Source of the DNA: Sinohyriopsis cumingii
Lineage: Eukaryota > Mollusca > Bivalvia > Unionida > Unionidae
Reading direction: 5' to 3'
DNA: 64,000 nucleotides
Assembly: GCA_028554795.2 (NCBI GenBank)
Contig: JAPYKE020000037.1
Location: 1,613,501-1,677,500 of the forward strand
In this document: positions 8,195-63,474 of the stretch, in pieces
Layout: each line of letters starts with the position of its first letter
Position numbering within the stretch: the first letter of the stretch is position 1
Translations under genes and position numbers: made by a program
Notes under the pieces: model-generated
The model's input: the letters and a program-made list of their open reading frames with translations, nothing else
What the model was told of the DNA's origin: nothing
The model's database searches: none

Positions 8195-8835
8195 GTAGAA
8201 ACGGAAAAAACGAGGCAAACGCACTGGAACAAACTGTGATCATCAAGACAAGAGCAATGCTCTACCCATGACCAGCCGGACTATATTTTGGATAACGTTC
8301 TTTCCACTTGCCATCATGATGATCAAGTGGAACCACTTTGTGATGACATAAAATTGGCTTTGCTGTTTACAGCAGAGGTCGCTTGATATTAGAGTATTTC
8401 ACTAGAACTAAATGCAAGCTTCATGCTTTCTAACCTCATATAATAAGTAGAGAATATACCTTTTCTTCAAAAAAATTTGGCTTAAATTTACTTCGTTAGA
8501 CAAACTATTTTATAAAATAGTCAAACAAAGGATATGTTACAAAGAGATATTTATGATTGTTTTTATAGTAATAAATAAAGCTACATATTAAAATCTAGCG
8601 GCTAAAAGGTACAGACACTAAAATCTCTACGTAGGTGATACATCCATAAATTCGAAACGTTTATTATGTATTCATTACTCCTAATAAGTTCATATCAAAC
8701 ATATGTATGAATAATAACATACATGGATTTCGCCATCATGCAAATATTTTCCGGCCAATATGAATGATTGATGCACAAATGAATGCTTTTCTTTGAAAGA
8801 AATAACCATGGTTTCTTTTTTTCCCTTAATATATA
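8192..8835. other. Intergenic host DNA
   Basis: No gene or recognisable repeat is seen in this stretch. Confidence 0.5.
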
Positions 8836-8869
8836 CACATATGCATATGTACATGCATGCATACATACA

Positions 8870-8901
<32 letters not shown>

Positions 8902-9255
8902 CACATATACAGGCATGCAAACACATATAGCTGCGTACGTGCGTGCGTACGTACATGCTTACGTACGTGCGTACGTGCGTGGGTACGTACGTATGTGCGT
9001 CAGTGCGTGCGTACATGCATGCGTGCGTGAGTGCGTACATACATACATGCATACATACATGCATACATGCATACATACATTCATACACACACACGCATAC
9101 ACACACACACATACATACATACATACATACATACATAACCGTACACACACATATACATACATACATACATACATACATACATACATACATACGTGAATGT
9201 GCGCATGCGTTTGTACGATCGTACGTGCGTGCATGCGTGCATACGTCCGTACATA
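8836..9255. repeat. (CATA)n / (CGTA)n tetranucleotide array
   Basis: About 420 bp of ACAT tetranucleotides alternating with GTGC/GTAC-rich blocks. Because the unit is 4 bp, every frame translates into repetitive Tyr/Thr/His/Val/Cys peptides and stays open on both strands. The resulting ORFs of up to 166 codons are artefacts. Confidence 0.95.
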
Positions 9256-9275
9256 TATACCAGTGTCATTAGGAT

Positions 9276-42285: not shown

Positions 42286-43163
42286 ATTTTGCCATCGTCA
42301 AACACTTTTCGCTATTCAAAATAAGATTCTACTTTTTGCTAGCGCTGCTATTTGTCTCCTAGTTTTTCCATTCCTGTTGATCTAAACCAGTGGTTTTATA
42401 AGTACGGATAGAACCCAGTACTCGGACAAGGAGTGTCAAACATTGAATAGCGTTGTTGATTCTAATGAATTGCAACATTATCATGTTATGGAAAATCTAG
42501 TCAAAAATATAATTATTGGATGGTCGGCATATATGACATTCCTCTACTGGGTCGAGAAAAAACATGTAAGAAAACAACAGATCTAATTTGTTTTTAATTT
42601 TTTTTATAATTGTTTTTAAAATTTGTAGTTTTTTTTTGTTGTCCCTAATTGAAGTGTACCATACACAGATTTTTTAGTCAAGGTTCGGAAAAGCTACATG
42701 AACTGTTACTTTTGCCAAGTGTATGCCGTAAGGTAACGTGACCTCAGCTTAAAATGAGGGGGATCAAAATGATTGCGAAAGTTAGCTTGTTTTGCGAGTA
42801 AATGTGTGAAATACGAAACGGGCTTAGTAAATATCCAGGTTCTGTCTAAACAATAATAAAGTGCAAATTTACTTACCAAAGGTCTTTGCATTTTACAAAA
42901 TACAATTTCTGTAAATTTGCAAACTGATAAACAATCAAGGATGTTCAGTCTTCACTAACGATAAATATTTTTGTCTGAAATAATTCGTTATCTGTGATCT
43001 TTGCATATATCTCTGCTTAACAATGGTGCACCACGTATCATAGACTAAATTGGGGATAGGGGGTAATAGGTCTCGATAACAGAGGTATTTGCAAGTTATA
43101 GTCATTCCTAAATACATTTCCCATATGTCCCTTCCTGTTTTGATAGCTAGGTCTAATAACATT
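42286..43163 (+). repeat. Low-copy repeat copy 2, left half
   Basis: Collinear with 28,829-29,764. It is interrupted at the AACATT target by the Polinton and resumes at 63,469. Confidence 0.85.
43158..43163. repeat. Polinton target-site duplication, left
   Basis: AACATT, repeated at 63,469-63,474. A 6-bp duplication is the norm for Polintons. Confidence 0.9.
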
Positions 43164-43573
43164 GGTAGTAATAGGGGCCACCCTAGCCTTAATGGGAATT
43201 AGCATTACAGGACCCCCTTGGGCCACTCTAGCCTCAAGGGAAATTTAACATGGGGAAAAATCATGGGCCACTCTAGCCTCAAGGGGAATTTAACATGGGA
43301 AATAGTCTTGGGCCACTCTAGCCTCAAGGGGAATTGAACATGGGGAAAAAGTCTTGGGCCACTCTAGCCTCAAGGGGAATCGAACATGGGGAATAGAGTT
43401 TGGGTTTGTCTAGGGACAAGGGGAATTAAACATGGGAGAAAAAAACTACTTTAGGGACAAGGGGAATTTAACATGGGAATTTAAAAAAAAAAAATTAAAG
43501 AAAAGGGTAGGCAATTGAAAGTCAATCTCTTTTCGAGACCTATGAGTGGCCCTAAAAAGGGCCTTTGGGTTTC
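43164..43573 (+). repeat. Polinton left terminal inverted repeat
   Basis: Begins GGTAGTAATAGGGGCC. It consists of seven subrepeats of about 45 bp (motif GGCCACTCTAGCCTCAAGGG then GAACATGGGG), an A-rich stretch, then the histone-type stem-loop block at its inner edge (43,526-43,563). It matches the right repeat closely except that it has one extra subrepeat. Confidence 0.95.
43526..43563 (-). terminator. Histone-type 3' stem-loop plus downstream element (gene at 43.6-44.2 kb)
   Basis: On the minus strand, GGCCCTTTTTAGGGCC (43,563-43,548) forms a perfect 6-bp stem with a 4-nt loop. It fits the histone consensus GGYYYTTYTHARRRCC and is preceded by CCAAA. CGAAAAGAGA follows 12 nt later (43,535-43,526) and resembles the U7-binding histone downstream element. 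It lies 48 nt after the stop of the 198-codon gene and inside the left terminal repeat. Confidence 0.8.
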
Positions 43574-43612
43574 TTCTTCTTCTTCTTCTTCTTCTTCTTC
43601 TTCTTCTTCTTC
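43573..43612. repeat. (TTC)n microsatellite in a 3' UTR
   Basis: TTC trinucleotides between the stop codon of the leftmost gene and its stem-loop. This expansion explains why that 3' UTR (48 nt) is longer than the 23-29 nt of the other stem-loop genes. Confidence 0.9.
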
Positions 43613-44208
43613 TAACTCCTTAACTTCTTTATCCATCCTCTTATTTTTTCCATCATTCCTTTCTTCTTCTTGTTTCCTGTTTCCGGTATCCAGTCCGGGT
43701 GACCCATGGCTCGGAACTTCTGTTGAATTTTCATCCAGTTAGCGTTTAGTTTCTCTAGTTCTTCCTTTTTCTTTCTATTTTCTTCTTCTTTTCTTTCCTT
43801 TGACCACTTTTCTTTGATCTTCTTCACCTCTTCGGTCAGCACATTCCTCATTACTTCTTCCGCTTTCTTAAGCTTGTCTAAGCCCCACTTCACAAAAGAC
43901 CAATCTGTCCATTCTACAATGTCTTCTAAAAAACACCTTACACTCGTCACATAAACTATGGCTTCTTTCAACCTGCCCATTTTCACATACGGTGGGTTAA
44001 TGAAACCTCTGATTCTCTTCTCCTCATCCTCTATCATTTCTTTCACAATATCGAGGGCTAAGTGGAGGCTGGTTACTTGTCTTGAGACGAAGTCTTTTGT
44101 CACTGCATGCCTCCATTCCTGTTCAAGCCTTTCTGCTACATTCAATCCATCCACTATCCAATACCAACTTCCCATAAGGTTGTTATACAAAGCTGAAGCT
44201 GCTGGCAT
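43612..44208 (-). CDS. Coiled-coil protein, tandem family member A
   Basis: 198 codons, intact, starting at ATG 44,208, about 55 bp downstream of a TATA-like TATAAG. The N-terminal half is helical with Trp-rich patches. The C-terminal half is a Lys/Glu-rich predicted coiled coil (VLTEEVKKIKEKWSKERK then EELEKLNANW). It shares the EEV-x-x-(E/I)KE-x-W-x-(E/K) pattern and the regulatory regions with the genes at 45.4-45.8 kb and 44.7-45.0 kb, so the three are tandem paralogues. No enzymatic motif. Function unknown. Its position beside the terminal repeat and its histone-like 3' end set it apart from the structural genes. Confidence 0.75.
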   Translation of the reverse strand: MPAASALYNNLMGSWYWIVDGLNVAERLEQEWRHAVTKDFVSRQVTSLHLALDIVKEMIEDEEKRIRGFINPPYVKMGRLKEAIVYVTSVRCFLEDIVEWTDWSFVKWGLDKLKKAEEVMRNVLTEEVKKIKEKWSKERKEEENRKKKEELEKLNANWMKIQQKFRAMGHPDWIPETGNKKKKGMMEKIRGWIKKLRS

Positions 44209-44261: not shown

Positions 44262-44370
44262 CTTATAGTGAAAGCGCGGACGTGATGGAAAACATCCCCC
44301 TAAGACATAAAATTGATATTACCTAGATCATAACCTAACAACGCGCGGACGTGAAGGAAAACATCCCTTA
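44262..44370 (-). promoter_or_regulatory. Promoter of tandem gene A: TATA plus two conserved boxes
   Basis: TATAAG (44,262-44,267) is preceded by a box of about 30 bp containing GATGTTTTCCATCACGTCCG (44,271-44,301). A second copy of the box lies at 44,341-44,370. The same arrangement precedes the other two tandem genes. Confidence 0.7.
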
Positions 44371-44605: not shown

Positions 44606-44647
44606 GTTATTTCTTTTCTAAAGGTTTGGGTAGCCCTGAAAAGGGCT
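44606..44647 (-). terminator. Histone-type 3' stem-loop plus downstream element (gene at 44.7-45.0 kb)
   Basis: Minus-strand AGCCCTTTTCAGGGCT (44,647-44,632) is a perfect 6-bp stem with a UUUC loop, flanked by ACAAAC and ACCCA as in histone mRNAs. The purine-rich TAGAAAAGAAATAAC follows (44,620-44,606). It is 29 nt after the stop codon. Confidence 0.8.
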
Positions 44648-44676
44648 GTTTGTTTTGGAACTCCAGTGACACCTGG

Positions 44677-44973
44677 TTAATGATGGCACCTTCCAGGCCT
44701 GGCACCACACACACATCTTCTTCCCCGGTCTCCTTTTACCTTTTTTCTTGGGAGTGCAGAGGCGGGATAAGTGGCTTCAGAATCCCAATTTTCTGTCTCT
44801 GGGATTCTGAAATTTCTTCTCTCCTTTTCCTCCTCTTCTTTTTTTCTTCTTTCCTCCTCCTCTTTCATCCTTCCCTCTTCGACAATGGCCTCCGCGGCCA
44901 GTTCATTTAGTATGCGCCTGGCATATTCCAGGTGTATCTGGAGTTCTAGAAGCTTTACAATTCTGGTATTCAT
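44677..44973 (-). CDS. Coiled-coil protein, tandem family member B
   Basis: 98 codons from ATG 44,973. The N-terminus is helical (IVKLLELQIHLEYARRIL), followed by a Glu/Lys/Arg-rich coiled-coil stretch (about 35-52) and a Cys/His/Arg-rich tail (CVCGARPGRCHH). It is shorter than its paralogues and may be truncated at the C-terminus. It shares promoter box, TATA position and 3' stem-loop with its neighbours. Function unknown. Confidence 0.65.
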   Translation of the reverse strand: MNTRIVKLLELQIHLEYARRILNELAAEAIVEEGRMKEEEERRKKEEEEKERRNFRIPETENWDSEATYPASALPRKKVKGDRGRRCVCGARPGRCHH

Positions 44974-45023: not shown

Positions 45024-45123
45024 TTTATACTAAAAGCGCGGACGTGAAGGAAAACATCCCCCTAAAAACAAAATTGATCTTACCTAGATCATGACCAAAC
45101 AACGCGCGGACCTAAAAGAAACA
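45024..45123 (-). promoter_or_regulatory. Promoter of tandem gene B: TATA plus conserved boxes
   Basis: TATAAA (45,024-45,029) lies immediately after the conserved box (45,033-45,063, core TTCCTTCACGTCCGCG). A decayed second copy of the box is at 45,101-45,123. Confidence 0.7.
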
Positions 45124-45354: not shown

Positions 45355-45396
45355 GTTATTTCTTTTCTAGAGTATTGGGTAGCTTTGAAAAGGGCT
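45355..45396 (-). terminator. Degenerate histone-type stem-loop (gene at 45.4-45.8 kb)
   Basis: Minus-strand AGCCCTTTTCAAAGCT (45,396-45,381) keeps loop and closing pairs but has two C-A mismatches in the stem. CTAGAAAAGAAATAAC follows (45,370-45,355). It is 29 nt after the stop codon, at the same position as in the paralogous gene. Confidence 0.6.
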
Positions 45397-45425: not shown

Positions 45426-45770
45426 TTAGTTTCTAAGAATGCGACGTCCTCTGAGGATAGACTTTCTGACGATAGGTCTGCTTCTTCGGAAAGAGAAGAA
45501 GAACTCTTTGGTGTCTCTGTCAGATTCAGGTTTCTGCTGCTGATGTTGTTGCTGCTGTTGCTGCTCTCTCTGCTGTTTCTGAAGTCTGTACTTCTCTGTC
45601 CATTCTTCTTTCTCCCTGTTCACTTCTTCTCTGAAGAGCTCTTCTATCAGGTCTTCAGTGACTTTTAACATTCTCACATTCTCTATCTCTTCTGGCTTCG
45701 GTATCAGACTGTGTCTGACCCTATGCAGATTCACGTAGGCTTCGTTTAGCTTGGCTAGTTTGGAGCACAT
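45426..45770 (-). CDS. Gln-rich coiled-coil protein, tandem family member C
   Basis: 114 codons if translation starts at ATG 45,770. The open frame extends upstream to 45,899, but the conserved promoter box and TATA-like element lie inside that extension, which argues for the internal start. Features are a helical N-terminus (KLAKLNEAYVNLHRVRHSL), a coiled coil (EELFREEVNREKEEWTEKYR), a poly-Gln tract of about 11 residues, and a basic Arg-rich C-terminus. Function unknown. Confidence 0.65.
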   Translation of the reverse strand: MCSKLAKLNEAYVNLHRVRHSLIPKPEEIENVRMLKVTEDLIEELFREEVNREKEEWTEKYRLQKQQREQQQQQQHQQQKPESDRDTKEFFFSFRRSRPIVRKSILRGRRILRN

Positions 45771-47185: not shown

Positions 47186-48505
47186 CTAATAATCTAGAAT
47201 GACTTCTCTCAAACTGTTGATTTCTATCGTATTGTCGAATTCTGCATACAGGATGACGTTCAACGTTGGATCAGCAGAGTCTCGGTTTGCAAACTGAATT
47301 TCCACACGAATCTAGCTGGATTTTATAGGGTGGAAATGTCCCTCGTTGCTGCCTTGGTCTGGAGTGAAATCAAAACCCCACAAAGCATAGCCTCCTACAT
47401 AATCCTCGTACGTAATGCCATGACTGGTGTTGGTTCCTAACTGTCCCGTGGCTTCGTATAGGGACAAGTGCGATCTCAAGTAATTGTTCTGAGTAAAGTT
47501 AGGCTCAAAGGGTCGGGTACACAAGGTCTTGCCGTCGCGACTGACTTCGATCTTGGACACGCCAAAGTGTCGAAACTCAAAAGGATTTTCGTTGTGAAGT
47601 CCATTGAAAGCTGAATTCCTGACGATACCAACGATCAAACGTTTGGGTAACTGTCCTTGGAACAGATGATCTTCGATCATGGATCGCTGTCCAACAGGAA
47701 TGGTGAACGTTTTCACTTCTACGCGTCGTATCGGATACTTGGCGGTCGTTCTGCTCAACGTCTGACTGACGTCATTTCCCACTTTAGGTAACACTTCCAC
47801 ACGACGCACGTAAAGACGGGCTTCTTGAATGAAAGTTTTGTATTCCTTGGCATGGGGCATCAAATGGAAAGCGGCACTGCTACGATTCAGTCTCAGACGG
47901 ATATCCACTCCGTTCAGCAAATACTTTTCTTGTAACCACATGTCCAAGTGCAAACGATCCATCAGTTCTAAACTTCGCCCTTGCAGAATTTTATTTCTAC
48001 GTGTGTTAAACCCCACATTGTGAGGTTCGTCATCTGTTGTGAGGACTGTGTCGTTAAACGTGCCTGTCGTGTCAGGTTTCCATACCACGCAAGCATTCAG
48101 ATGAGTATTCTTGGCTTCTTTTCAGTACGTCAAGAGATTTTCCAGGTAGGCACGATAAGGGTAAGTATCCATGCTGCTGCTGACCAGTTTGTTATTCAAG
48201 TACAAGTCCACTTCACTGAACAAGGAATGCATGAAATTGTTGACATGAGCTACTCTATCATTGGCTCCAGGATTGGTGTTGTCCGTTTTGATCACTTTGA
48301 CTTTCAAGTACAGATAACTGCTATTCAGATCGATGTAATCTTCGGGCTGACCTTTGATGTCAAACTCGATGGGAGCAGAATCCGTCAAAGAGGAGACCGG
48401 TTGAAATTCCACCCACTGGGATTCTTGCATGGTCATCATGGTGGGCGGCATGGCAAACAGATCCAGTTCCGACTTGGAACAAGCGCAAGACTCTCGGTGC
48501 ATCAT
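47186..48505 (-). pseudogene. Major capsid protein (double jelly-roll), two nonsense codons
   Basis: One continuous frame of 440 codons is interrupted by TGA (48,122-48,124) and TAG (47,312-47,314) and ends at TAG 47,186. Recognition is from the typical N-terminus (CSKSELDLFAMPPT, then WVEFQPVSSL), the EDYIDLNSSYLYLKV strand, YPYRAYLENLL just before the first stop, and near the C-terminus GFDFTPDQ and LNVILYAEFDNTIEI. Polinton MCPs form double jelly-roll hexon-like trimers. Because the reading frame is intact on both sides of each stop, these are point nonsense mutations, not gene boundaries. Confidence 0.9.
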
Positions 48506-56006: not shown

Positions 56007-56642
56007 TCAATGTCTCGGTCCCACTAAGGGTAAGTAATGACAATTCGGTGACCATCGAGCATGTTCTACGTAGGCCGAATCTTGCGGTTCCCAGTGGTGA
56101 AGTGACACACCACAACTGAAGCACTTGACTTTATCTCCTTCGCCCAAGTAGAACAATCCGGCTCTGGCTAATTCTTCGGGGGTCGGTCGTCCCAGATATT
56201 TAGGCCATTTTCCTTTGAACGATTGAAGACGATTTTCAAAGTCGCAGTATTCCGACAAACGCACAGGAAACAAATATTCGTCTTTCACAGGTTCGTTTCG
56301 ATAAAGGTTGGGTGACATGGACAGGAGTTTGCTCAGGGCTGGATGACATCCGTAGGGGGGTAGACGTGAAGGTGAACATCCACCTATAAAACGAAACCCA
56401 GTAAAATGTCCAAGAGGACGAGCGCCATCGCTTTCGCATCCCTCAGGTTTGACACGCACAGCATCACTTTCCATGATAGGGGTAGTGAGAACAAAGTTCC
56501 CATGATGCTTTACGGCATCGTTAAGGTCACAGCGTACAGCATCGTTCCCATCGCAAGGCTCACAATCGCATTCCACTTCAGAAGCCCCACACTTGAATTG
56601 TGCCTTTCTAAACTTGTTTTGTGTTTCTCTGAAAGTATTCAT
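56007..56642 (-). CDS. BIR-domain (IAP-like) protein 1
   Basis: 211 codons. The C-terminal BIR domain (about 120-205) has the CCHC zinc ligands C174, C177, H194 and C201 in VKCFSCGVSL ... YVEHARWSPNC, plus the typical ARAGLFYLGEGD. The N-terminal 110 residues are Cys/Asp-rich and unrecognised. No RING or CARD follows. BIR proteins bind caspases or act at the spindle; viral ones block apoptosis of the infected cell. TATAAAAAG lies at 56,701-56,709, about 60 bp upstream of the ATG. Confidence 0.85.
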   Translation of the reverse strand: MNTFRETQNKFRKAQFKCGASEVECDCEPCDGNDAVRCDLNDAVKHHGNFVLTTPIMESDAVRVKPEGCESDGARPLGHFTGFRFIGGCSPSRLPPYGCHPALSKLLSMSPNLYRNEPVKDEYLFPVRLSEYCDFENRLQSFKGKWPKYLGRPTPEELARAGLFYLGEGDKVKCFSCGVSLHHWEPQDSAYVEHARWSPNCHYLPLVGPRH

Positions 56643-56700
56643 CTTGTTCGCTCGGTCTTTTTAGGTAGTCACAATGAACTATTGATATTGACCATAGCCC

Positions 56701-56709
56701 CTTTTTATA
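56701..56709 (-). promoter_or_regulatory. TATA box of BIR gene 1
   Basis: Minus-strand TATAAAAAG about 60 bp before the ATG. It overlaps the last codons of the upstream BIR gene. Confidence 0.6.
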
Positions 56710-57163
56710 CTAGTCGCAATGCAGTCTCAAGCTTGTACATCGTTCCTTTTTTATGTTTTTTATGTCTTGTTTTGGAAGGTACCGTTTCTAAGGTACCGTC
56801 ATTATTGTACTGTAATGTCATGGGTGGAAAGGCTATATAAAGGTAAGGGCAGTGCGGAGACCATCGAATATGTTCCAGAATAGCTGAATCTTTATAGATA
56901 CATAGATCCATTCGTAACTTCAGTCCGCAAGCGAAACACTGTACTTCGTATCCCAATCCTGACTCAGGTCCCAAGTAGACAAATCCTGTTCTAGCTAAAA
57001 CATGCGAAGAAGGTAATCCTTTCCTATCCGTAGGCCATGCTTGAAACGTGTCCAATCGACGGGCACAATCACAATAGTCAGGCAAGAAAACCGGAAAATG
57101 GTAGGGTTTGAACTTGGAGTTCTCATCGGGTTTCTCACTCGATTCTTGCTGTGGCGAAGTCAT
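56705..57163 (-). CDS. BIR-domain (IAP-like) protein 2
   Basis: 152 codons. A single BIR domain (about 25-110) has RRLDTFQAWP, LARTGFVYLG and zinc ligands C76, C79, H98 and C105. The spacing to the His is slightly longer than in its neighbour. A basic tail follows with HKKHKKGTMYK. Paralogous to the gene at 56.0-56.6 kb. Its own TATA box (GGTATAAAACA, 57,198-57,207) lies about 40 bp upstream. Confidence 0.85.
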   Translation of the reverse strand: MTSPQQESSEKPDENSKFKPYHFPVFLPDYCDCARRLDTFQAWPTDRKGLPSSHVLARTGFVYLGPESGLGYEVQCFACGLKLRMDLCIYKDSAILEHIRWSPHCPYLYIAFPPMTLQYNNDGTLETVPSKTRHKKHKKGTMYKLETALRLV

Positions 57164-61359: not shown

Positions 61360-61853
61360 ATGGAAGAGACTAGCCAAATCGAACGTTTCATCAGAGCTTT
61401 GCAGGGGTCATTAGAAAATTCTCTTCAGACCAGCCGACGGACTACTCTACTTCCTTTCGAGATAAAAGTGAAGATACTTGCTATATCTGTCAGAAGAAAG
61501 GGCATTGGTCTTCAGAGTGTCCAGACCGTCAAAAAAGAAAAACAGGGGTTAAAAGAGATAAAAGTCAAGATACCTGTTATTATTGTCAAGAAAAAGGACA
61601 TTGGTCTCCAGATTGCCCAAAAAAGAAACAAGAGGAGTCAGAAGAAGAGAAGGATTCTTCAGAGGAAGAAGAAGAGGAGGAAGAAAGCAGAAAGGTGAAG
61701 AAAAAGAATCAGGAGAAGAAAAGAAGAAGGGAAGAAAGTGAGGAGGAAGAGGAGGAAAAGACTGACGGTGAAGAAATTGAAAAAACAGAGAGACTAAACA
61801 GTGAGACAGAAGAAGTCTATGAACTTTTTAAAGTGCTCTGTTGTGAATTGTGA
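61360..61853 (+). pseudogene. Double CCHC zinc-knuckle protein, frame disrupted
   Basis: The ATG frame (61,360 onward) encodes MEETSQIERFIRALQGSLEN and then degenerates into Lys/Arg-rich sequence. The next frame, open from 61,374 to TGA 61,851-61,853, encodes two perfect retroviral-type knuckles, CYICQKKGHWSSEC and CYYCQEKGHWSPDC. An acidic Glu-rich domain and a short tail ending LFKVLCCEL follow. That frame has no ATG before the knuckles, so a frameshift (or an unseen splice) must join them. CCHC knuckles bind single-stranded nucleic acid. It is one of the two plus-strand genes of the element. Its 3' end has AATAAA (61,879), not a stem-loop. Confidence 0.7.
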
Positions 61854-62018
61854 ATTGGATTGTAACTATTGATAAAAGAATAAATTAGGTATAAAAAAGG
61901 TAAGTGTCTTTGGATTTTGATTTTAAATTAAGAACGTACAGTCACACATTCATACACATGTACTATAGGGGTAAAATGGTTGGGTTTTATTTTTGAGTTA
62001 TTGGCAATTGAAAGTCTA

Positions 62019-62056
62019 TCTCTTTTCGAGAAACGTGGGTGGCCCTGAAAAGGGCC
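62019..62056 (-). terminator. Perfect histone-type 3' stem-loop plus downstream element (gene at 62.1-62.6 kb)
   Basis: Minus-strand GGCCCTTTTCAGGGCC (62,056-62,041) is flanked by CCAAA on the 5' side and ACCCA on the 3' side, exactly as in animal replication-dependent histone mRNAs. CGAAAAGAGA (62,028-62,019) starts 12 nt later and complements the U7 core CUCUUUU. The hairpin begins 25 nt after the stop codon. Confidence 0.85.
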
Positions 62057-62081
62057 TTTGGTTTTTGGTGTAGAGGTGAGT

Positions 62082-62636
62082 TTAAGCAATCAACTTTAAG
62101 TGTCTTAAGCCTTTGCCACGGCCGAAGCCTACTTCTGATGATGATGATTTGGTTGAAATCACTAAGGGTGGTACGGTGGGTTTAGTCACAGGGTTGGCGT
62201 GTTTAGCTCGGGAAGGTCGTATTCTCTTCGGTCGTGATAAAGAAGTCTGATACATTTGTTTCAGACTTCTTAACTCCGCTAAAATGTCTAACAGTACCGT
62301 GACCGTTTGATTTTCACCCTCTTGTTTCTTTGCTGCTACTTCTTCTTGTTGTTGTTTTTTTCTTACCTCTTCTTCTTGCTGCTGTTGCTGTAGGAGAAAA
62401 GCTTGTTCCGCTTCCTTTTGTCGTTGTATACATTTCTCCAATTCTTCTTTCTGTCTCTGTCTAAAATTCTCCACTTGCGGTAATGAAGAAGGAGACGAAG
62501 GTTCCGGAACAAATTCTTGCGAGGTAAGAAAATCCACAAAATCCCAATTTACCTCTTATGAAAATAAGTCCGGGTTCCCTTGGGCGGTCTCCACTGCTGG
62601 TGCACTCCAACTGATCGTTTTCTGAGTTTCCGTCAT
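62082..62636 (-). pseudogene. Gln/Glu-rich coiled-coil protein, one nonsense codon
   Basis: 185-codon frame from ATG 62,636, the first ATG after a CRE/TATA promoter, to 62,082, with TAA at codon 27 (62,556-62,558). After the stop the frame encodes a Glu/Gln/Lys coiled coil (about 60-115, with a QQQQQ tract), a helical segment TVLLDILAELRSLKQMY and a basic Ser-rich tail. It resembles the three left-end coiled-coil genes in composition and 3' end, but the sequence similarity is weak. Function unknown. Confidence 0.6.
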
Positions 62637-62683
62637 GTTGAATCACTGTTGCATAGATTGACTGCACACAGGCGCTAGCGAAT

Positions 62684-62705
62684 CTATATAGACCACGTGA
62701 CGTCA
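62684..62705 (-). promoter_or_regulatory. CRE/E-box plus TATA promoter
   Basis: Minus strand: TGACGTCA (62,698-62,705), a perfect CREB/ATF palindrome overlapping a CACGTG E-box (62,694-62,699), then CTATATAG (62,684-62,691), about 50 bp before the ATG at 62,636. Confidence 0.65.
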
Positions 62706-62855
62706 CAGACTGCTCTCTTCGGATTGGATGCAGGCTAACTGAATTTTGTAACGCGTGTTTGGATTGGTCAATGAACTCAATCCGTTTCAATCCTTCCTCT
62801 ACCTGTAAATAAGCGCAGTTCACTGCATTGATTCACCTGTTCTCGTTGCCTCAAG

Positions 62856-63089
62856 ATGTGGACCACAGTCGAATCATCCACCCTTGTTTCTTCAATGATG
62901 TTTAGGACGGACATGCTAATGTATGTCCGATCCAACTGGACAATTGTCCATAGGACCGCCAGCAACCTATGGATACGTAGGATTTACGTGGAGAGGCAAG
63001 GATGCCTCAAAAGAGTTCTGATTTACGGTCCTACAGTGAGACGAAGCCTAAGGACAAGAAGAAGACCAATGCGGTGCCCTTTATGTTAA
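62856..63089 (+). CDS. Small basic protein next to the right terminal repeat
   Basis: 77 codons from ATG 62,856. A GTAAATAAG TATA-like sequence lies about 50 bp upstream (62,803) and TTCACC initiator-like sequence about 25 bp upstream. The stop (63,087-63,089) is 23 nt before a perfect histone-type stem-loop on the same strand, which is the main reason to believe in the gene. The C-terminus is Arg-rich (VRRSLRTRRRPMRCPLC). No family recognised. Another frame is also partly open, so the frame choice is uncertain. Confidence 0.5.
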   Translation: MWTTVESSTLVSSMMFRTDMLMYVRSNWTIVHRTASNLWIRRIYVERQGCLKRVLIYGPTVRRSLRTRRRPMRCPLC

Positions 63090-63100
63090 GGACATATTAA

Positions 63101-63468
63101 CATAAATCCAAAGGCCCTTTTCAGGGCCACTCATAGGTCTCGAAAAGAGATTGACTTTCAATTGCCTACCCTTTTTTTAATTATTTTTTTTTAAAAATCC
63201 CATGTTAAATTCCCCTTGTTCCTAAAGTAGTTTTTTTTTCTCCCATGTTCAATTCCCCTTGTCCCTAGACAAACCCAAACTCTATTCCCCATGTTCGATT
63301 CCCCTTGAGGCTAGAGTGGCCCAAGACTATTTCCCATGTTAAATTCCCCTTGAGGCTAGAGTGGCCCATGATTTTTCCCCATGTTAAATTTCCCTTGAGG
63401 CTAGAGTGGCCCAAGGGGGTCCTGTAATGCTAATTCCCATTGAGGCTAGGGTGGCCCCTATTACTACT
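63101..63468 (-). repeat. Polinton right terminal inverted repeat
   Basis: Inverted copy of the left repeat, ending CCTATTACTACT, with six subrepeats where the left has seven. It contains the plus-strand histone-type stem-loop at its inner edge. Confidence 0.95.
63113..63150 (+). terminator. Perfect histone-type 3' stem-loop plus downstream element in the right terminal repeat
   Basis: Plus-strand GGCCCTTTTCAGGGCC (63,113-63,128), preceded by CCAAA and followed by ACTCA. CGAAAAGAGA (63,141-63,150) begins 12 nt after the hairpin. It ends transcripts running outward toward the element's tip. Confidence 0.85.
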
Positions 63469-63474
63469 AACATT
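63469..63474. repeat. Polinton target-site duplication, right
   Basis: AACATT, identical to 43,158-43,163. Confidence 0.9.

Follow-up and report, generated by a model that had tools for sequence, protein, structure and literature searches.

To our knowledge the pathway that forms histone 3' ends is generally regarded as histone-specific, and we know of no earlier virus-like user of it. In animal histone mRNAs, as outlined in two accounts of the pathway (PMC7614891, PMC5011920), SLBP sits on the 3' stem-loop and U7 pairs with a downstream element, the ensuing cleavage giving messages that lack poly(A) and belong to S phase. A viral parallel is provided by the virophage Sputnik, 16 genes of which use the hairpin polyadenylation signal of Mimivirus, according to the outline in PMC6723459. 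Here we describe a Polinton/Maverick element in a 64-kb stretch of Sinohyriopsis cumingii DNA (the window), five genes of which (gA to gE) end in tails that share the stem, the loop, the short 3' UTR and the downstream purine element of the metazoan replication-dependent histone 3' end, and the GAAAAGA core of the host's own histone genes at nearly equal spacing. Unlike metazoan histone genes, gA-gE have no Pfam histone match and are part of a mobile virus-like element. The parallel with Sputnik is that a small mobile virus forms 3' ends with a hairpin signal belonging to the system on which it depends, the difference being that the signal there is a giant-virus polyadenylation hairpin, whereas the Polinton has an animal-host histone stem-loop with a U7-type element. 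A search of the open-access literature yielded no description of Polintons with a histone stem-loop or histone mRNA ends, and none of viral histones with stem-loop binding protein.

The element spans 20.3 kb (43,164-63,468) and is flanked on both sides by the target duplication AACATT (43,158-43,163 and 63,469-63,474). Its left terminal inverted repeat is 409 nt long (43,164-43,572), with an inner edge that is the 5' flank of a stem-loop, and the right one 365 nt (63,104-63,468); both consist mostly of degenerate 41-46-nt tandem units (43,207-43,479 and 63,186-63,454), of which the left arm has one more. Domain matches to an rve integrase (7e-14), an A32-like ATPase (6.5e-8) and, in pieces, PolB (2.9e-22) are present, while a protease of the Ulp1/adenovirus type is indicated by a Peptidase_C48 match only (0.0042, under its cut-off). 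The frame at 47,312-48,121, which we take to be the major capsid protein, has 524 relatives, none of them named capsid among the 120 matches listed, and the organisms named in that list are Mercenaria, Saccostrea, Ostrea, Crassostrea and one bacterial genome bin, which by itself would point to a bivalve as the probable host. The initial annotation's assignment of the element to the Polintons is sound, as integrase, PolB, A32-like ATPase, inverted repeats and 6-bp target duplication are all shared, the capsid gene being a putative one; the departure from other Polinton/Maverick elements is that short genes at both ends bear histone-type 3' ends. The window copy is partly decayed, its capsid-like and gD frames being interrupted. 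The family is present in very high copy number (27,714 first-look gD candidates genome-wide), and 150 scored gD matches are 92-100% identical, many with open frames. Two genes with BIR (inhibitor of apoptosis) domains also lie within the element (56,007-57,163), and elsewhere in the window a microsatellite-like stretch (8,783-9,257) gives microRNA-family matches under their cut-off.

All five hairpins described by the initial annotation were found at the coordinates and on the strands it gave, each on the sense strand of its gene and 23-48 nt past the stop. On the minus strand at the left end, gA (198 aa, 43,612-44,208) is followed after 48 nt by a stem-loop at 43,548-43,563, inside the left inverted repeat, and by GAAAAGA at 43,528-43,534; gB (98 aa, 44,677-44,973) has its stem-loop 29 nt past the stop, at 44,632-44,647, with a top pair that is A-U and not G-C, and GAAAAGA at 44,612-44,618; gC (114 aa, 45,426-45,770) has, again after 29 nt, a damaged stem-loop with two C.A mismatches at 45,381-45,396, and GAAAAGA at 45,361-45,367. 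Towards the right end gD, 157 codons of which are open to the stop (62,082-62,555, minus strand) in a frame that is interrupted upstream in the window copy, is followed after 25 nt by the stem-loop at 62,041-62,056 and by GAAAAGA at 62,021-62,027. Divergent from gD and present in other copies is gE (77 aa, 62,856-63,089, plus strand), with a stem-loop 23 nt past the stop, at 63,113-63,128 inside the right inverted repeat, and GAAAAGA at 63,142-63,148. Four of the hairpins fold, as had been claimed, into a six-pair stem with a four-base loop, the exception being that of gC. A purine block past the stem is likewise present in all five tails as GAAAAGA, but at 13 nt and not at the 10-12 nt first proposed.

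A comparison with the Rfam histone stem-loop model RF00032 (cut-off 34 bits), set beforehand as a check, placed three of the five tails above the cut-off, namely those of gD (62,016-62,061, minus strand; 40.1 bits, the best match in the window), gE (63,108-63,153, plus strand; 37.5 bits) and gA (43,523-43,568, minus strand; 36.5 bits); that of gB fell just below it (44,608-44,652, minus strand; 31.1 bits), and the damaged tail of gC gave no match. The 64-kb window holds no further RF00032 match up to E=10. The pattern GGYYYTTYTHARRRCC occurs three times against 0.01 expected, and five times against 0.08 when its ends are relaxed to R/Y. In gB and gC the change from G-C to A-U has occurred on both sides of the stem, although five rows are by themselves too thin for a covariation test. 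All five tails are copies of a single 63-nt repeat (four in direct repeat family D3, the fifth through the inverted pair I6), so they are related to each other and do not amount to five independent observations. This relatedness is what would be seen if an ancestral Polinton had acquired a host histone 3' end that then spread, unused, in inverted repeats and gene tails, and the high amplification of the element, with 150 gD matches scored among the many candidates, would likewise make common ancestry of the copies expected. We regard such a passive legacy as unlikely from the conservation of the tails and their limited likeness to those of the host, set out below, and also because the signal is, among the genes tested, confined to certain gene ends.

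Since the inner edge of both inverted repeats carries the signal, it is the outermost genes, gA and gE, that end in a stem-loop there. Two copies inside the repeats, and a repeat edge that is itself the flank of a stem-loop, could suggest a DNA-level element at the inverted repeat, serving in replication, packaging or integration and merely looking like a histone stem-loop. This we judge highly improbable, because three of the copies lie outside the repeats, every one of the five has sense orientation and stands 23-48 nt past a stop, and the resemblance to the host histone signal extends to spacing.

None of the other Polinton genes in the window is followed by a stem-loop over the 400 nt past its stop. 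One of them, a zinc-knuckle gene (61,374-61,853, plus strand), has instead an AATAAA at 61,879, 26 nt past its stop, and AATAAA also follows two more of the genes that lack a stem-loop, the 54,366 frame and the protease-like frame. Genes with and without the stem-loop, three of the latter with AATAAA, fit two expression classes, one of which would be coupled to host DNA replication. Polyadenylation signals bear also on whether the stem-loops might bind SLBP as decoys, or to serve mRNA stability, export or translation, in transcripts that are still cleaved and polyadenylated downstream: an AATAAA does lie 91 nt past the stop of gD, some 50 nt beyond its stem, and another lies farther from gC, 255 nt past its stop, but gA, gB and gE have neither AATAAA nor ATTAAA within 400 nt of the stop, and a GAAAAGA held at host spacing would be needless for SLBP binding on its own. 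We accordingly think it quite improbable that the role of the stem-loop is limited in this way.

The motif GCGCGGACGTGA, which the window has only in front of gA, gB and gC, is found at 44,274, 44,343, 45,036 and 45,837 (with a variant at 45,104), and a TATA-like box stands beside the copy closest to each of the three. Motif and box together are a possible shared promoter of these stem-loop genes. The genes gD and gE diverge from one 220-bp stretch (62,636-62,855) that contains CACGTGACGTCAC as well as ATTGG and TATA-like boxes, in an arrangement reminiscent of divergent histone gene pairs.

The histone genes of the host itself provide the yardstick for the downstream element. A Pfam Histone search of the host genome (2.90 Gb), in which 150 of 662 candidates were scored, gave many matches in tandem at a spacing of about 8.3 kb, and the tails were read from three 10-kb stretches. 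These contain H3, H4, H2B and H2A and a fifth stem-loop that presumably belongs to H1, with RF00032 scores of 35.0-39.4 bits (two matches cut at the ends of stretches score lower). The host stems are of the GGCCCT or GGTCCT type and are followed by 13-14 nt of variable sequence and then by the downstream element, which is GAAAAGA at 13 nt in H3, H4 and H2B, GAAAAGA at 14 nt in the fifth gene and GAAAAGG at 14 nt in H2A. All five tails of the Polinton in the window have GAAAAGA at 13 nt past the stem, against a background density of this heptamer of 1.6 per 10,000 positions in the window's host sequence. Core and spacing thus match those of the host histone genes, so that the U7-like element is one of the host's own kind, and we consider this match the strongest single result. 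Outside the GAAAAGA core, 25 pairwise comparisons of Polinton and host tails were mostly no better than shuffles (the lowest being 11, 33 and 33 of 1000), a point against a passive legacy; a host histone gene is a possible source of the signal.

A host U7 snRNA was sought by several routes. The RF00066 model gave no match in the host, its controls being equally silent, and pairing of the Polinton element with the human U7 5' end was no better than background, a weak test given the other phylum. A U7 pattern search of the host genome gave nine matches as against six in a reversed control. Among the candidates, that at G000:C13:13,576,118 (L100) has CTTTTCTAG shortly upstream of ATTTGTCTAG. By hand count it forms 13 consecutive Watson-Crick pairs with the downstream element of host H3, a pairing that is partly circular as the pattern was picked for complementarity; L100 has no Rfam match, and its 3' hairpin is weak.

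To what extent the signal is kept can be read from other copies of the element in the genome. The RF00032 search of all 2.90 Gb scored 75 places, all above the cut-off, which are a sample of the first-look candidates and not the 75 best, and 55 of the 75 were fetched. Genes of the window's Polinton family are present at all 55 and core histone genes at none; host histone tails, at 35.0-39.4 bits, are absent from the 55 although the list reaches down to 34.5 bits. In the best 30 loci, chosen by score, GGCCCTTTTCAGGGCC is present in every one and is preceded by CCAAA in 28, and of the 56 stem-loop tails in these loci 54 show AAAAG at offset 14 and 43 show GAAAAGA at 13, the heptamer being inexact in the other 13. 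A less circular view is given by neighbouring gene ends in the 55 loci, counted where a gene's own stem-loop was not the match that selected the locus (the loci still deriving from the sampled list), with the stem-loop called present from 15 of the 16 consensus letters and five pairs upwards. The initial annotation had staked its reading on hairpins recurring at the same gene ends in related Polintons, and so they do: in 22 of 24 copies of gD, 18 of 19 of gB and 11 of 11 of gE, as opposed to none of 22 ends of the zinc-knuckle gene in the same loci, a count that leaves out one further copy located at the selecting match. AAAAG at offset 14 accompanies the stem-loop in 22/22 of these ends for gD, 15/18 for gB and 11/11 for gE. 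For gC no copy had its end in view, and each of the seven gA copies in view owed its selection to its own stem-loop. When gD copies were instead chosen by protein search (150 scored of the 27,714 candidates) and ten tails were read, all ten had the stem-loop, with 16/16 consensus letters in nine and six pairs in nine, and all ten had AAAAG at offset 14; coming from the best-scoring matches, these ten are the closer copies.

The pattern of divergence in the tails bears on whether the signal is an idle remnant. Of the 24 gD tails, one that matched under 13 of the 16 consensus letters was dropped. Pairwise differences among the other 23 average 0.057 in the stem-loop and 0.0 in GAAAAGA, with 0.15 in the spacer and 0.14 in the 14 nt after the element, and so the signal is near-invariant against a difference of about 40% in the 20 nt upstream (0.42) and in the last, farthest 26 nt downstream (0.41). 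The corresponding values for 19 gB tails are 0.052 in the stem-loop, 0.129 in GAAAAGA, 0.36 in the spacer and 0.50 in the 20 nt upstream, and 13 of the 19 have AGCCCTTTTCAGGGCT, with the A-U top pair, a change that preserves pairing and speaks, like the gD contrast, for a signal that is maintained and against a passive legacy. The 11 gE tails are identical in stem-loop and GAAAAGA (0.0 in both), but say little about constraint since the 20 nt upstream differ by only 0.088 and the five letters past the stem by 0.204. We put the probability that the ends of gA-gE are working 3' ends of the replication-dependent histone type, that of gC being damaged in the window copy, at roughly 0.85.

A metagenomic protein from outside this genome, P0146 (72% identical to gD), runs through the usual stop, and the part translated beyond it corresponds in frame to the stem-loop and GAAAAGA, altered beside the stem and at the edge of the loop. 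L001, a distant and degraded Polinton at 47% in its capsid-like protein, has no stem-loop match; the 8.4-kb contig that carries it is assigned to a Breoghania bacterial genome bin and is probably animal contamination there. Searches of viral_contigs with the integrase protein or with gA, capsid-like and gD profiles gave no relatives, and the stem-loop pattern matched no contig there; in genome_contigs the gA search found no match and the capsid-like profile one distant match, and among phages the gA search found none.

The proteins encoded upstream of the stem-loops are not recognisable as histones. Charged residues make up 29-44% of the short products of gA-gD, and homologues in metagenomes were found for gA (10, at 48-55%) and gD (20). 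None of gA-gE has a Pfam histone match, and neither gA nor gE has a histone match in solved structures. A relationship of gE to histone H4, which it resembles by eye, was rejected, as a frameshift-tolerant comparison with H2A, H2B, H3 and H4 was not clearly above shuffles (12 per histone) and the Pfam and PDB searches gave no histone. Common ancestry of gA with gB, gC and gD was likewise discarded, hhalign giving a weak match to gC only (E 0.0018, probability 15%) and nothing notable to gB or gD.

If the ends of gA-gE do work as histone-type ends, their pre-mRNAs would carry an SLBP-binding stem-loop followed by a downstream element of the host U7 type, and host SLBP and U7 snRNP would direct cleavage right past the stem. 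The mRNAs would then be non-polyadenylated, with S phase as the main period of their synthesis and stability, and the purpose may be that the proteins are produced while host DNA replication is accessible to the Polinton. We infer this use of SLBP and U7, the lack of poly(A), the S-phase coupling and its purpose from the DNA itself, the coupling to S phase being a putative step that has support. Taken as a whole, it is likely that a mobile virus-like element has put a class of non-histone genes under the host histone mRNA programme (SLBP, U7 snRNP and S-phase stability), with the signal in both inverted repeats and the proteins timed to host replication, and that selection keeps this feature across a large family.

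The combination of stem-loop and downstream signal suggests that the element borrows the pathway that links histone production to DNA replication. If this is true, a Polinton family with the pathway on non-histone genes would be its first virus-like user known to us, and the expression of a mobile element would be tied to host S phase through an RNA-processing signal. The many diverged sequences of this large family would also be natural material for working out what SLBP and U7 require.
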